Positions 1,878 through 10,595 of a DNA stretch of 10,595 bases are shown here, in pieces. Origin of the DNA: Candidatus Aenigmatarchaeota archaeon (GTDB lineage: Archaea; Aenigmatarchaeota; Aenigmatarchaeia; Aenigmatarchaeales; JAHLMR01). Where the stretch lies: assembly GCA_018920255.1 (NCBI GenBank), contig JAHLMR010000016.1:1-10595 (forward strand), in the 5' to 3' direction. Within the stretch, counting starts at the first letter, position 1. Every line of letters begins with the position of its first letter. Under the pieces are notes generated by a model, which worked only from the letters and a program-made list of their open reading frames with translations, did not search any database and was not told where the DNA came from. The position numbers and the translations under genes are program-made.

Positions 1878-2711
1878 TTATTCATAAAAATCTTCAAATC
1901 TATCAAATATTTTCCATGATTCTGGAGAGATTTTTATTTTTCCATTTACTTTTTTATAAACAACTTTTGAAACATTACTTTCAAAACAACTTTCAATTTT
2001 TAAAAAAAGATTTTCTTTACTTTCCTTTAATGTTTGTTCATATTTTTTTCTAGAATTTTCAACTTTTTTCTTTAAAATTGACAACTCTTGATTATTTTCT
2101 TTTATTTTTATTTTCTCATATTTATCTAATACATATGATGTTGAAGGATAAAGTGATAAGCCTATTATTCCTGATGCTACAACAGAAATTGCAAGCTTTG
2201 CTCCATCTGAAATTGGTAAATCTGATAAACTATTATATATTAACAATGCTGTATCTGTTCCTGTAAATATTTTTATTGCAGCATTATCAAAAAATTTTTT
2301 TAATTTTTTAGAAAATTCTCTATAATTTTTTATATCCTCTTCTTTTTCTAAGATAGTTTCACTATAATTTTTATATGCTTCTAAATACTTTTGTTTCTCA
2401 AAGTTACATTTTTCAATATAACTTTCAAATTCATCTAAATATTCTTTAACTTTATTTAATTCATCTAAGTATTTTAATAATTTTTCTGCATATTTTGTAT
2501 TCTTCTTTTTTTCTTCTTTTTCTATTTGTTTATTTATTTTACTTATTTCTTTACAAAGTATATCATAAGAAGTTTTTATTTCATTTCTTTTTTCTGGATT
2601 GTCAACATACTTAGATAGGCTTAATGGATCATATTTACTTAAAATTTCTCTTGTCATTTTTGACATATTTTCAAAGGATAGTGAATAATAAACTTCTAAA
2701 TTATTATTCAT
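1878..2711 (-). CDS. Unrecognised coiled-coil protein with a central hydrophobic region
   Basis: I do not recognise a family. The preferred start is ATG 2711 (277 residues) because GGGGGT lies 4 nt before it; the TTG at 2723 would add MGVK and lie upstream of that site. No signal peptide is visible. Layout from ATG 2711: an N-terminal segment to about 40, a Lys/Glu-rich predicted coiled coil at about 44-138, a hydrophobic region of two stretches (about 143-163, and AKLAISVVASGIIGLSLY at 172-189), a second charged helix at about 197-237, and a short C-terminal domain ending RFEDFYE. Two long helices around a hydrophobic hairpin suggest a membrane-bound scaffold; alpha-helical pore-forming proteins have a similar outline, but I see no motif to support that. 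It is next to ftsZ on the same strand, so a division or envelope role is possible by context only. Confidence 0.8.
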   Translation of the reverse strand: MNNNLEVYYSLSFENMSKMTREILSKYDPLSLSKYVDNPEKRNEIKTSYDILCKEISKINKQIEKEEKKKNTKYAEKLLKYLDELNKVKEYLDEFESYIEKCNFEKQKYLEAYKNYSETILEKEEDIKNYREFSKKLKKFFDNAAIKIFTGTDTALLIYNSLSDLPISDGAKLAISVVASGIIGLSLYPSTSYVLDKYEKIKIKENNQELSILKKKVENSRKKYEQTLKESKENLFLKIESCFESNVSKVVYKKVNGKIKISPESWKIFDRFEDFYE

Positions 2712-2716
2712 TTTTA

Positions 2717-2721
2717 CCCCC
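2717..2721 (-). promoter_or_regulatory. GGGGG Shine-Dalgarno-like site deciding the coiled-coil gene start
   Basis: The minus strand reads TTGGGGGTAAAAATG. The G run with the following T lies 4 nt from ATG 2711 and directly overlaps the alternative TTG at 2723, so the ATG is the likelier start. Confidence 0.5.
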
Positions 2722-2743
2722 AATTAATAATTAAATAGAAAAG

Positions 2744-4638: not shown

Positions 4639-6663
4639 TCAAACTTTCTCAATTTTTGCGCAAAGTACATAAACCTGCATACCGTTCCCAGTATCACCTT
4701 CCCAATCACAAAACCAGCCATAAGTAGTAGAAGAGTCTATAAGTGGCCAAAATTTTTTAAGATAGACACCGGGGAGTCCTGCATTACATGCACCGGAGAG
4801 GGTAATATATCCTTGCGGACATACTACGTCTATTGTATCTTTATCAAGATTTGCATCACATCCAGCCAATCCTGAAGTATAATCACAATTATTAGGCTTT
4901 GAAGTATTAACCCAAGCACCACCCTTAATTATATTCATCTTAAGTGTTCCTGTAACACTTAAGTTGTATGGATAGTTGGTAGTTCCTATATTTACATTGT
5001 TATAAAAATTAGTAACTCCATTAACATAAACTTCTCCTGTAACATTTAAACCTCCAACAACATCTAATTTTTGTTGTGGGTTTGTTGTTCCTATACCTAC
5101 TTTTCCACCGCTTTCATAAATCACAGAATTTCCGATTGAATTTGCACCAGTCCATTTTGTAATATTATTTTGAGCTCCTGATCCGGTAACTCCAGAAGGC
5201 CATGAAGATCTACAATCACTTCCAATACATAATTGAGATCCTTTAATGAAACCTGTTGCGGTTATATTTCCATTAACATCTAAAGCTTCTTGTGGGCTTG
5301 TTGTTCTTATACCTACTTTACCGTTATTTCTTACTATTAAAATTGGACCTGTTGTTGGTGCCCAAACATGCCAATAATGATTTCCATCATTATTGGGAAA
5401 ATCAAAACTCCATTCTGTACTATTTGTAGTATTTATTAATATTATATTTGTACCGCCATACCAATATCTATTCTGCGTAACATTTAAATTTCCAACAACA
5501 TCTAAAGCTTGTTGTGGATTTGCTGTTCCTATACCTACTTTACTATCTCCTCTTATTACCATGTTTGGAGAGTTTGGACTTCCGTTTGGATGAAATGCAA
5601 AATAATCTGGAGTTCCTTCATAATAACTAAAACCATAATCTGGATATTGAGCAGAAACCCCCCAAATTTTGTTTCTTCCATTAGTAATAAATGAATTCAT
5701 AATTATTCCGTAAGATTTATCTACAATAAGATAACCATTCTCAACAGATAAATTACCTTGTATTTTTGTACTTCCATTAACACTAAGTTTTTCAGCAGGA
5801 TTTTCTATACCTATACCAACTTTTCCTTGAAAATATGCCTTTCCTCTTTCTATATATAAACCATATTCATTATCAGAATTTGTCTTTCCTTGTATTGCGG
5901 GGCTTCCAATTGCATAAAGTCCTGTTGCATAACCTATACCTTCTGCAAAAATACCATAACTATTTCCAACCCCTTTAACTCCTATTCCTGGACGACCACC
6001 AACCGAATTATTAGCAAAACCAAAAACTCCCACAGCAGTTCCATTTCCAAAAACCCCATAATATCCTTCTCCATAAACTCCTGTACCATTTGATGCAGTT
6101 GATTTTCCTAAAACTCCTGTTCCCATGCTTCCCCCGGTTTGTAAACCATAAACAGCTGTTCCACCTGGCCCAGCTTCACCATGAAGACCTTCTGCAGAAC
6201 CTGTACCAGAAATAGCTGTTAAATTATTAGTATTAACATTGATTGGATAATCTGTAAATAATAAATTTTTCGATGAAAATGAATAAGGAGAAGAAGTTAT
6301 ATTATATCTTGGTTTAAAAACTTCTACAGTTCTCATTTGTCTACTTGTAAAATTTATTTCAAGATAATATGGTTTATCCCAATTAAGATTTATCGGATTA
6401 TTTTTTCCTAATATAATATTAACTATTCCATTCTCATCAACATAAATATTTTCTTGAGTTTCACTCCAAAGTAGATTTCCTTTTTCTGGAGCGTCATAGA
6501 TAGAAAAACCAAAAGTATAAGTACCGCTTGTAACAGGAAAACCTGTTTTATCTGTTAATCTTCCTTGTAATGTTATTTGTTGTGGTAATCCTGCAAAAAT
6601 AGAAATTGAAAAAACAGATAAAATTAACATTAATATAGTTAAAAAAGTTATTTTATTTTTCAT
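4639..6663 (-). CDS. Secreted repeat protein with phage-tail/adhesin-like modules
   Basis: Probable cell-surface or released adhesin of 674 residues; exact ligand unknown. Layout: a Sec signal peptide (1-24, MKNKITFLTILMLILSVFSI core, cleavage near FAG); an N-terminal domain (about 25-130) with QGRLTDKTGFPVTSGTYTF and ENGIVNIILG, as in bacterial secreted proteins; a glycine-rich stretch with recurring GxYG/GVFG turns (145-272); five KVGIGTTNPQQ-LDV-GNLNVTG-type repeats (281-303, 375-397, 449-471, 521-543 and a weaker one at about 557-576), common in tail-fibre-like proteins; and a C-terminal domain with six cysteines (593, 602, 615, 626, 652, 668) including VVCPQGYITLSGAC, suited to disulfides outside the cell. 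I count about 16 N-x-S/T sequons, consistent with N-glycosylation. No S74 peptidase domain and no C-terminal membrane anchor are visible. A GAGGTG ribosome site precedes the ATG. Confidence 0.85.
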   Translation of the reverse strand: MKNKITFLTILMLILSVFSISIFAGLPQQITLQGRLTDKTGFPVTSGTYTFGFSIYDAPEKGNLLWSETQENIYVDENGIVNIILGKNNPINLNWDKPYYLEINFTSRQMRTVEVFKPRYNITSSPYSFSSKNLLFTDYPINVNTNNLTAISGTGSAEGLHGEAGPGGTAVYGLQTGGSMGTGVLGKSTASNGTGVYGEGYYGVFGNGTAVGVFGFANNSVGGRPGIGVKGVGNSYGIFAEGIGYATGLYAIGSPAIQGKTNSDNEYGLYIERGKAYFQGKVGIGIENPAEKLSVNGSTKIQGNLSVENGYLIVDKSYGIIMNSFITNGRNKIWGVSAQYPDYGFSYYEGTPDYFAFHPNGSPNSPNMVIRGDSKVGIGTANPQQALDVVGNLNVTQNRYWYGGTNIILINTTNSTEWSFDFPNNDGNHYWHVWAPTTGPILIVRNNGKVGIRTTSPQEALDVNGNITATGFIKGSQLCIGSDCRSSWPSGVTGSGAQNNITKWTGANSIGNSVIYESGGKVGIGTTNPQQKLDVVGGLNVTGEVYVNGVTNFYNNVNIGTTNYPYNLSVTGTLKMNIIKGGAWVNTSKPNNCDYTSGLAGCDANLDKDTIDVVCPQGYITLSGACNAGLPGVYLKKFWPLIDSSTTYGWFCDWEGDTGNGMQVYVLCAKIEKV

Positions 6664-7598: not shown

Positions 7599-8540
7599 TT
7601 ATTCATTCTTTAATGGTAAAAATATTTTATTTTTTAGTTTTTTAAGCTCGTTTTTTCTCATGAAAATTATTGGTCTAAGAATTGGAAATTTAATATTTTT
7701 ATTTTCAATGTTAATTTTTTCTATATCCTTTAAAGTAATTTTTTGAAAATTATCTGGAAAAACTATAGCCAACGCATTCTCTTTTTCAGCAATAGAATTA
7801 ATTTCTTCTAAAAATTTTAATTTATCATAAAAGTAATATTTTATTTCTCTTCCATAATACCATTTATTTAATATTTTTAAAGAATCTTCAAAATTTTTAT
7901 TATCTTTTTCAAAAATTAAAATAAGTTCACAACCTTTTCTAGCAAGTAACCATGCTGCCTCAATCATTGTTTTTTTATTATTCATAACTACACATACTTT
8001 TCCAGCAGTACCAAGTGGAAGCCCACCAGCACACTCATATTTTTCAGTAAAAATATATGCCTTTCTTGATCTACATTCTATATTTATTTCGATATCAGGA
8101 TTTTCTAAATCAACAGGAGAATTAGTTATTTTTTTAACTGCTGCTCCTACTTCTTCTGCTATTATTCTTGAACTAAATTTATGTCTTCCTGCAGTTCTAA
8201 CTCTTATAGCAAATTTTTTATTTTTATTCAAACCAACAAATTTAGCAACTTCAACAGCAAGAATTTTCATTTCATCTAAACCAGCAAAACATACCCATGC
8301 AGGAGAAACTGAAGTAATTCCAAAAACTCTTTTTAATTGATTTATAGCATCATAAATTTTATCTGTATAAATAAATATTCTGTTTGGATTTATTTCTATT
8401 CTATATTCTATTTTTTTCAAAGCACAATCTATATTTTCTAAAAGAATTTTCATCCATTTATTTTTTACTTGTTCACTTTTTAATGCTATTTCTCCAAGTC
8501 TTACTATTATACAATCTGGGTTTCTAAATTTATATTTCAT
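7599..8540 (-). CDS. ThiI-like NFLD-THUMP subunit with a degenerate PP-loop domain
   Basis: Probable tRNA-binding subunit of a two-part tRNA 4-thiouridine synthase. Seen in 313 residues: an N-terminal ferredoxin-like domain opening IIVRLGEIALKSEQ (11-24), a THUMP domain (about 82-167, with FAIRVRTAGRHKFSS), and the ThiI linker GGLPLGTAGK (172-181). A PP-loop domain follows in the usual place but is broken: SGGxDSP is replaced by MNNKKTM (186-192), the CxxC is absent, the region equal to TGESLxQVASQT reads FPDNFQKITLKD, and the end is short after FPILRPI. Recognisable remnants (EAAWLLARKGCE, ENALAIV, PILRP) show real ancestry. It starts 2 bp after the stop of the intact PP-loop gene, with GAGGT just upstream. 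On its own it should not activate or thiolate tRNA. Confidence 0.85.
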   Translation of the reverse strand: MKYKFRNPDCIIVRLGEIALKSEQVKNKWMKILLENIDCALKKIEYRIEINPNRIFIYTDKIYDAINQLKRVFGITSVSPAWVCFAGLDEMKILAVEVAKFVGLNKNKKFAIRVRTAGRHKFSSRIIAEEVGAAVKKITNSPVDLENPDIEINIECRSRKAYIFTEKYECAGGLPLGTAGKVCVVMNNKKTMIEAAWLLARKGCELILIFEKDNKNFEDSLKILNKWYYGREIKYYFYDKLKFLEEINSIAEKENALAIVFPDNFQKITLKDIEKINIENKNIKFPILRPIIFMRKNELKKLKNKIFLPLKNE

Positions 8541-8542
8541 AG

Positions 8543-9184
8543 CTAAACCTCTAAAATTTCTGCGTTTTCAACAATCTCTTTTATTTTTAAATTTAATTTT
8601 CTTTCAGCATTTTCAACATCTTCTTTTTTTGCTTTTGTTTCCGGATATCTTGGGGTTGCAAAACAACATGCTGGTTTTCCAGATTCTGTATAACATCCTT
8701 TTTCTCTAGTACATGAAATTTCATAAGTTCCTATTTCCTTTGCCTTTCTTACTATTTCTTCTTTATCTAAACATAACAGTGGTCTTAATATAGGGATTTC
8801 TATAGCTTTAGATTCAACAGAAAGATTATGCAATGTCTGAGAAGCAACCTGAGCAAGTGATTCTCCTGTTATAATACATTGTGCATTTTCTCTTTTAGCT
8901 ACTTCTTCAGCTATTTTATACATAATTCTTCTACATAAAATACATGTTAATCTTCTTTCTGGATACTTTAAAATATTTTTAATATTTTCTCCATTTTGTA
9001 CAATATATAATTTTAATTTTTTTCTTAATTTTTTTGAAATTTGTTCACATAATCTAATAACACGTTCTTTTGTTCCCTTAGGAAGATAAGGAGAATTATC
9101 AACAAAAACTAAAATTATCTCACCATATTTTCCTGCAATATATGTACTTACTGGAGAATCAATGCCACCACTTATAAGGCACAC
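8543..9184 (-). CDS. thiI: Stand-alone catalytic PP-loop (AANH) half of tRNA 4-thiouridine synthase
   Basis: Catalytic part of ThiI, which adenylates U8 of tRNA and transfers sulfur to make s4U; ThiI-type enzymes can also feed thiazole synthesis. Seen, counted from GTG 9184 (213 residues): PP-loop SGGIDSP (5-11) at the very start, CILC (81-84), GESLAQVASQTLHNL (107-121), PILRPL (131-136), IGTYEIS (151-157) and a Cys-rich end with C158, C164 and C173-C174 before FATPRYPET. No NFLD, THUMP or rhodanese domain is present, although ThiI normally has the first two in one chain. CxxC plus a later Cys fits the Fe-S-dependent archaeal ThiI. It lies between cysS and the THUMP gene with minimal gaps, so one operon. 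A CTG at 9196 may be the true start, giving 217 residues. Confidence 0.88.
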   Translation of the reverse strand: MCLISGGIDSPVSTYIAGKYGEIILVFVDNSPYLPKGTKERVIRLCEQISKKLRKKLKLYIVQNGENIKNILKYPERRLTCILCRRIMYKIAEEVAKRENAQCIITGESLAQVASQTLHNLSVESKAIEIPILRPLLCLDKEEIVRKAKEIGTYEISCTREKGCYTESGKPACCFATPRYPETKAKKEDVENAERKLNLKIKEIVENAEILEV

Positions 9185-9193
9185 AAATTTTAC

Positions 9194-9206
9194 CAGTTAA
9201 ATCACC
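9194..9206 (-). promoter_or_regulatory. GGTGAT site pointing to a CTG start for the PP-loop gene
   Basis: GGTGAT (9206-9201) lies within the last cysS codons, followed by TTAA and CTG (9196-9194). The distance from GGT to this CTG (7 nt) matches that at other genes here, whereas the GTG at 9184 is 16 nt from the end of GGTGAT. Confidence 0.4.
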
Positions 9207-10595
9207 ATATACCATTTTGTTTCAAATTTTCCATCTTCTAAAAGAATACCGACTTTTTTTAAATTTTCTCTTATAGCATCAGAATTTTTAAAATCTTTTA
9301 TTTTTCTATAATTATCTCTTTGTATAATTAAAAAATTTACTATATCTTTCATTTCTTCATATTTTTTATTTATTTCTTTTTCATACAATTCTCCAAAGAA
9401 AATTTTAGAAAATTTTTCAAAAAAATCAAATAATACCTGTGCTGATTTTTTGTCCATTCTTTTATTTTCCTCATAAAATTTATTAATTTCTTTTATTAAC
9501 TCTAAAACTTCATTAATTGCTAAAGAAGTATTAAAATCATCATTCATTGCATCTTCAAACTTTTTCTTTTGCAATTCAAAAATTTTTAATAAATTTTCTG
9601 CATTTTTTCCTTCATTTGCATCTTCAATATTTCTTTTTAAATCAAAGATAACATGAATTATTTTTTCTAATTTTTCTTTAACAGATAAAATATCTTTTTC
9701 ATTAAAATCTAATTGTTTTCTATAATGTGTATTTAGCATAAAAAATCTTATAAGAATTCCTGGATATTTTTTCAATGCATCTCTTACTGTAATAAAATTT
9801 CCTAATGATTTTGACATTTTTTGCCCGTTTACAAGAACATGTTTTACATGCATCCAATATCTTGAAAATTCTTTTCCTGTTACTGCTTCACTTTGAGCTA
9901 TTTCATTCTCGTGGTGTGGAAATATATTATCTTCTCCTCCACCATGAATATCAAAACTTTCTCCTAAATATTTCATTGCCATTGCACTACATTCAATATG
10001 CCAGCCTGGTCTTCCTATTCCCCAAGGACTATACCAATATGGTTCATCTTTTTTTGCTGCTTTCCATAAACAAAAATCAGCAACATCTTCCTTTTCATAT
10101 TCATCTGACATTATTCTTCCTGAAGCACCAGCTTTTAATTTTTCTTTTTCTATTCCTGAGAGTTTTCCATAATCTTTAAATTTAGAAATTTTATAATAAA
10201 CCCCATCTTCAGTTTTATAACCATAACCTTTTTCAATTATTTTTTCTATTAATTCTATCATTTCCTGAATATGTTGCATTGCAGAAGGATGAACATCATT
10301 TCTACTAATACCTAATTTTTCTCTATCTTCAAAATATGCAACTGTATATTTTTCTATATATTCTTGAAACGGAATTCCTAATTCTTTTACTTTTTTTAAA
10401 ATTTTATCATCAATACTAATATCTGTAATATTTGATACTGTTTTTGTTTTATATCCTAAATATTCTAACCATTTTTTAACTACATCCCAAAAAATATAAC
10501 ATCTTGCATGACCTATGTGCATATAGTTATTTACTGTTAAACCACAAAAGTATGCTTTAACATAATCTTTTTTTAATGGTTTAAAATCTTCTATT
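9197..10595 (-). CDS. cysS: Cysteinyl-tRNA synthetase, N-terminus outside the window
   Basis: Class I aminoacyl-tRNA synthetase that charges tRNA-Cys in the cytosol. The frame is open to the window edge: before ATG 10522 come 24 more codons ending [15 protein letters not shown], which contain the zinc-ligand cysteine and the strand before the HIGH motif. The ATG therefore encodes an internal methionine and the gene is 5'-partial here. Counting from that methionine: HIGHAR (2-7), WHIECSAM (174-181, zinc ligand C178), [20 protein letters not shown] (194-213, zinc-ligand histidine region), KMSKS (235-239), then a helical DALR-type anticodon region to residue 441. The stop is followed in the same frame by the ThiI PP-loop sequence, five codons before its GTG. 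It is the most upstream gene seen of the cysS-thiI operon. Confidence 0.95.

Follow-up and report, generated by a model that had tools for sequence, protein, structure and literature searches.

Two adjacent genes of a Candidatus Aenigmatarchaeota archaeon, here called P1 and P2, probably encode the obligate subunits of a split ThiI/TtuI, in which P2 would grip the tRNA and P1 would thiolate U8 in trans; we put the probability of this reading at about 0.76. We infer the contact between P1 and P2, U8 as the target, the s4U activity and the Fe-S sulfur chemistry in P1. The window, that is the whole stretch of 10,595 nt analysed, comes from a genome of 552 kb in 25 contigs that is 94.6% complete. 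Its relevant features are:

9197..10594, minus strand: cysS (cysteine--tRNA ligase; profile match), located immediately upstream of P1 and read in the same frame
9201..9206, minus strand: GGTGAT, a Shine-Dalgarno-like site preceding CTG 9196, within the end of cysS (sequence)
8543..9196, minus strand: P1, stand-alone ThiI PP-loop (pyrophosphatase) domain, assigned as the catalytic subunit (start CTG 9196 or GTG 9184; motifs, Pfam, fold)
7599..8540, minus strand: P2, NFLD, THUMP, linker and degenerate PP-loop domain, assigned as a PH1313-like tRNA-binding subunit (Pfam, structure match)
8304..8510, minus strand: NFLD of P2 (ThiI_fer, PF22025; Pfam, E 1.1e-15)
8046..8282, minus strand: THUMP domain of P2 (PF02926; Pfam, E 9.1e-15)
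7998..8027, minus strand: interdomain linker of P2, GGLPLGTAGK (ends approximate), whose second Gly corresponds to T. maritima Gly168 (alignment)
7602..8001, minus strand: degenerate PP-loop domain of P2, in which PP-loop, CxxC helix, GES..SQT and the C-terminal portion are gone or have given way to other sequence, with a Rossmann-like core predicted to be folded (alignment, AlphaFold2)

P1 and P2 in the source genome

PF02568 (Pfam ThiI) matches P1 from end to end (E 5.5e-56), and the Pfam search found neither THUMP nor NFLD in it. Its motifs are SGGIDSP (residues 5-11), CILC (81-84), GESLAQVASQT (107-117) and CC (173-174). The first-pass annotation had described P1 as a motif-complete PP-loop protein free of tRNA-binding domains, and the Pfam match and the motif positions bear this out. 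Of the 11 ATP-contact positions listed for T. maritima, ten are kept; the exception is Asn288, which is replaced by Ser in P1 as in most relatives. With this substitution, the ATP-site set of SGGIDSP, R264 and GES..Q...Q is complete in P1, and none of it is found in P2. The CILC and CC of P1 provide the CxxC and third Cys in the PP-loop domain that define the archaeal Fe-S class, which P2 lacks. The fold predicted for P1 by AlphaFold2 matches the ThiI-ATP structure with a Z of 27.9.

P1 shares the reading frame of cysS, from which it is divided by a single TAA at 9199-9197 (...KWYMVI*LVKFVCLISGGIDSP). Initiation at CTG 9196 gives the N-terminus LVKFVCLISGG, and the N-termini of relatives are similar. 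The start codon is probably CTG 9196, with GTG 9184 as the alternative, and cysS is probably co-transcribed with P1.

P2 had been described as an NFLD-THUMP protein with the linker GGLPLGTAGK and a PP-loop reading MNNKKTM, in which CxxC is absent, GESL is lost and PILRP is left; this description and its coordinates proved correct. The dead domain has about 135 residues, and PDNFQKITLKD stands in the place of GESLAQVASQT. None of the T. maritima ATP-contact positions is kept in the alignment, and the PF02568 remnant is weak (residues 240-306, including PILRP; E 7.6e-6). The AlphaFold2 model of P2 has a pLDDT of 92 with the dead domain predicted to fold, and its Z is 30.2 to 1vbk and 27 to ThiI. 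The closest solved structure is PH1313 of P. horikoshii (1VBK, 'ThiI-like protein'), which P2 resembles from end to end, in the dead domain as well (E 2e-30 over residues 10-305; the structural match covers 294 residues). P2 has the make-up of the PH1313-like family, that is, NFLD, THUMP and linker followed by a shortened PP-loop domain without catalytic residues.

Neither protein is a single-chain ThiI, in which NFLD, THUMP and PP-loop domain occur together, because P1 is without NFLD and THUMP and the PP-loop domain of P2 is degenerate. Both fall below the 264.5-bit cut-off of TIGR00342 (NCBIfam ThiI), P1 with 196.7 and P2 with 146.8, while an intact control chain (L094) scores 314.7. Another complete ThiI in the genome had been named in advance as evidence against the split; the profile search of the 94.6%-complete genome found no PF02568 match besides P1 and P2. 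The sole other THUMP match is in a separate frame of 421 aa. Neighbour genes in the window are archaeal in type (MiaB-like-B, TrmB-type regulator), and the genome probably falls within DPANN. The window also encodes a 674-aa protein (4639-6663, minus strand) with a signal-like N-terminus and repeated KVGIGT-NPQ-LDV segments (86-nt repeats), which weakly resembles a mosaic adhesive trimer fibre domain and has no Pfam match, and a 281-aa protein (1878-2723, minus strand) rich in charged, coiled-coil-like sequence with no NCBIfam match.

Distribution of the two parts

A search of related archaeal genomes, suggested by the first-pass annotation, recovered the same pair of a dead NFLD-THUMP chain and a stand-alone PP-loop protein, mostly unlinked, in the window's class, Thermoplasmata, Borrarchaeum and Pyrococcus-type Thermococcales. 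Among the 40 nearest genomes, stand-alone PP-loops accompany a separate NFLD-THUMP chain, and genomes with the single chain only are without them; in a wider draw of 76 genomes of the phylum, split and single-chain forms are both present. Outside the Thermococcales, a stand-alone is found in 22 of 24 dead-chain genomes versus 1 of 25 with a complete-scoring chain (Fisher 1e-10, ignoring relatedness), and the pooled non-Thermococcales sets give a Fisher p of 7e-16, which likewise ignores relatedness. G037, tallied as having both an intact chain and a stand-alone, encodes a complete-scoring chain from which CxxC and SGGIDSP (here SGSVDAA) have been lost. Two genomes (G005 and G010, 89% and 69% complete) have a dead chain or fragment and no stand-alone, and both carry an intact chain. 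In the named archaea, all six dead-chain genomes (two Borrarchaeum, three Thermoplasmata-like, one euryarchaeote) hold exactly one stand-alone, which is present in 0 of 16 named intact-chain genomes outside the Thermococcales.

Among 41 Thermoplasmata, 29 have both parts, in separate places, six the stand-alone only, three the separate chain only and three an intact chain; the stand-alone is thus present in 29 of the 32 genomes with a separate chain. All 27 separate chains read are dead, and the 20 stand-alones read all keep the PP-loop and SQT motifs. Several stand-alones in the wider set (L014, L015, L016, L227, L230, L232, L238) have no CxxC, which means that the split form exists with and without the putative Fe-S site. 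A sizeable share of the related small genomes (G009, G011, G020, G021, G033, G035 and others) has no clear ThiI domain of either kind, and their gene content suggests that s4U has been lost there.

In the Pyrococcus-type Thermococcales, the stand-alone is found in nine of nine dead-chain genomes. P. horikoshii and five other Pyrococcus-type genomes have no complete ThiI, only a dead chain and a stand-alone; the ThiI-type complement of P. horikoshii is PH1313 and one stand-alone PP-loop. In three other Thermococcales (G088, G102, G080) the pair stands beside a separate complete ThiI and could therefore have another role there. An active single-chain TtuI is known from P. furiosus, and this would agree with the genomes that have both forms. 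The presence of a complete ThiI beside the dead chain in these three genomes, and the use of the same fold by other PP-loop thiolases, would suit a heteromeric thiolase that acts on another tRNA position or makes another sulfur product and is not the s4U8 enzyme. We consider such a change of target unlikely, since no further ThiI is present in most of the split genomes examined and the conservation seen in ThiI extends to both the NFLD-THUMP part and the active site of P1.

Origin of the split

In the tree, the stand-alone PP-loops and the intact-chain PP-loops of Thermococcales are sister clades, which points to duplication inside that lineage. Most Thermococcales genomes have kept the intact chain with a stand-alone PP-loop nearby. 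Both are present in most Thermococcus, so making good the loss of a chain's active site is not the whole role of the stand-alone. The active site has been lost from the chain in Pyrococcus-type genomes and partly in T. paralvinellae, and in G124 and G109 the stand-alone has shrunk to a fragment and the chain is intact. The chains of G018/G025 and G037 are still long, with partial decay that differs in each. Chains in partial decay beside a stand-alone are L073, L034/L035 and L039.

Stand-alones from Thermoplasmata and from the class of the window are placed apart from the Thermococcales ones. A single ancient origin of all stand-alone PP-loops was rejected (p-AU 0.0005), from which it follows that the split arose at least twice; one origin for the non-Thermococcales stand-alones is compatible with the test (p 0.24). 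In G080, the dead-chain and stand-alone frames overlap by about 25 nt. This stand-alone (L181) groups with intact-chain PP-loops, apart from other Thermococcales stand-alones, and is perhaps a separate, younger split.

Close relatives with a single intact gene had been named as evidence against the split. One genome of the window's own order (G006) is weakly such a case: it has a single intact chain, yet the NFLD-THUMP part of this chain nests in the dead-chain clade. Its placement is consistent with an ancestor that had both forms, and the split itself goes deeper than the order.

Residue partition and selection

In the T. maritima ThiI dimer, a tRNA bound by NFLD and THUMP of one subunit has its U8 in the partner's PP-loop domain, and a hydrogen bond joins linker residue Gly168 to Asp319 across the dimer (PMC4041423). 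About 30 of the positions conserved in intact chains are kept by stand-alones alone, including the PP-loop SGGIDSP, CxxC, GES..QVASQT, DK and C-terminal prolines; dead chains alone keep the linker GGLP..G..G and M-K-R-G, of which the linker half is trivial because stand-alones are without that region, and MKRG and the loss of Asp319 from dead chains are not. Gly168 is kept in 32 of 32 dead chains having the linker, and Asp319 in five of 32 dead chains versus 52 of 53 stand-alones. The T. maritima contact would therefore survive mainly from P2 to P1. Such a partition is expected from an asymmetric dimer with one working half-site.

The first-pass annotation had proposed that the dead domain survives as the dimer interface. 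The support is indirect: dead chains retain the linker, the folded core and helix alpha-1 (MKRG), but they have lost the sequence of the DI-loop (GES..QVASQT), which in T. maritima ThiI sits at the dimer interface.

The two proteins might also work separately, P2 as a tRNA-binding chaperone and P1 as an unrelated PP-loop enzyme, given that PP-loop domains serve many pathways and that the genes are mostly unlinked outside the window. This is very unlikely in view of the near-complete mutual co-occurrence, the complementary residue retention and the adjacency of the two genes in the window, in G080 and in several Thermococcus tandems.

Most of the close pairs measured show purifying selection on the dead domain. 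For the three closest Pyrococcus-type genomes its dN/dS is 0.07-0.09, for Thermoplasmata 0.19-0.28, and dN/dS is about 0.5 for both parts of the chain in Borrarchaeum; values are quoted for close pairs only, as dS is saturated in most dead-chain pairs. P2 as the decaying remnant of a ThiI in a reduced genome, with P1 alone or nothing making s4U, would accord with the 552 kb genome, with the single intact chain in G006 and with the faster evolution of dead domains than of NFLD-THUMP. Such local decay is rejected by recurrence and selection and is hardly credible: the pair recurs in Pyrococcus, in the majority of Thermoplasmata sampled and across the class of the window, the dead-domain dN/dS is low, and the linker and MKRG are conserved among dead chains.

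Discussion

The division of labour between two ThiI copies, as first proposed from the window, is strongly supported by co-occurrence, residue partition, intermediates and two independent origins. The pair is real; it is not special to the source genome, and the dead chain belongs to an existing family with a solved structure. In the two-subunit enzyme, P2 would hold the tRNA by its acceptor stem and CCA end through NFLD and THUMP. The linker of P2, together with the core that its dead PP-loop domain has kept, would serve to dock P1. P1 would bind ATP and adenylate U8, with sulfur delivered from the CxxC+C site. Since the homodimer already brings U8 of a tRNA held by one subunit into the partner's PP-loop domain, complementary losses would be possible after duplication: one copy may have dropped the tRNA-binding domains and the other the active site, leaving one working half-site. 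It is likely that two-subunit ThiI is a major archaeal U8 thiolase, that it has at least two origins, each through duplication of a homodimer and complementary loss of domains and residues, and that PH1313 and the PRK08349 family are the Pyrococcus halves.

The pair has in total the same three domains as ThiI/TtuI of T. maritima (4KR6/4KR7) and B. anthracis (2C5S), and P1 keeps their ATP-contact and CxxC residues. The homodimer reaches U8 in trans (PMC4041423), as we propose for P1 and P2. Unlike ThiI/TtuI, the domains in the window are on two chains, one PP-loop domain is dead, and neither chain meets the NCBIfam ThiI cut-off. A 2023 review lists PH1313 as a ThiI-like protein without conserved residues whose activity is unconfirmed (PMC9957541), and no partner for it has been proposed in the literature searched. 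The Thermococcales stand-alones are the family NF006222/PRK08349 'hypothetical protein', to which the P. horikoshii member matches with 347.5 bits (cut-off 251); P1, with 175.2 bits, is below the cut-off as a distant relative from a group of separate origin.

The closest functional parallel is Ncs6/Ncs2 (Ctu1/Ctu2), the eukaryotic wobble-U34 thiolase. It is proposed to derive from a homodimeric archaeal PP-loop thiolase that became a catalytic subunit and a paralogue without Fe-S cysteines, the latter proposed to orient tRNA (PMC10067955). Ncs6/Ncs2 differs in belonging to another thiolase subfamily, in acting on another tRNA position and in having no THUMP, and the P1 and P2 copies shared out the domains themselves. 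No description of a two-subunit ThiI was found in the literature on PH1313, PRK08349 and TtuI, with work on archaeal Fe-S TtuI and on the quaternary structure of E. coli ThiI covered in part. The two-subunit variant is apparently undescribed, while the fold of the dead chain is already known.

If the proposal is true, a crystal structure that has had no assigned role since 2005 and a 'hypothetical protein' family would both acquire a function. It would also fill an apparent tRNA-modification gap in many archaea, which arises because neither half passes the ThiI annotation cut-off. The pair would be a clean, repeated case of change from homodimer to heteromer, one that the trans arrangement in the T. 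maritima complex predicts and whose intermediates are still alive in Thermococcales. It would parallel the evolution proposed for Ctu1/Ctu2, and whether U8 thiolation needs a homodimer could be put to a direct test.
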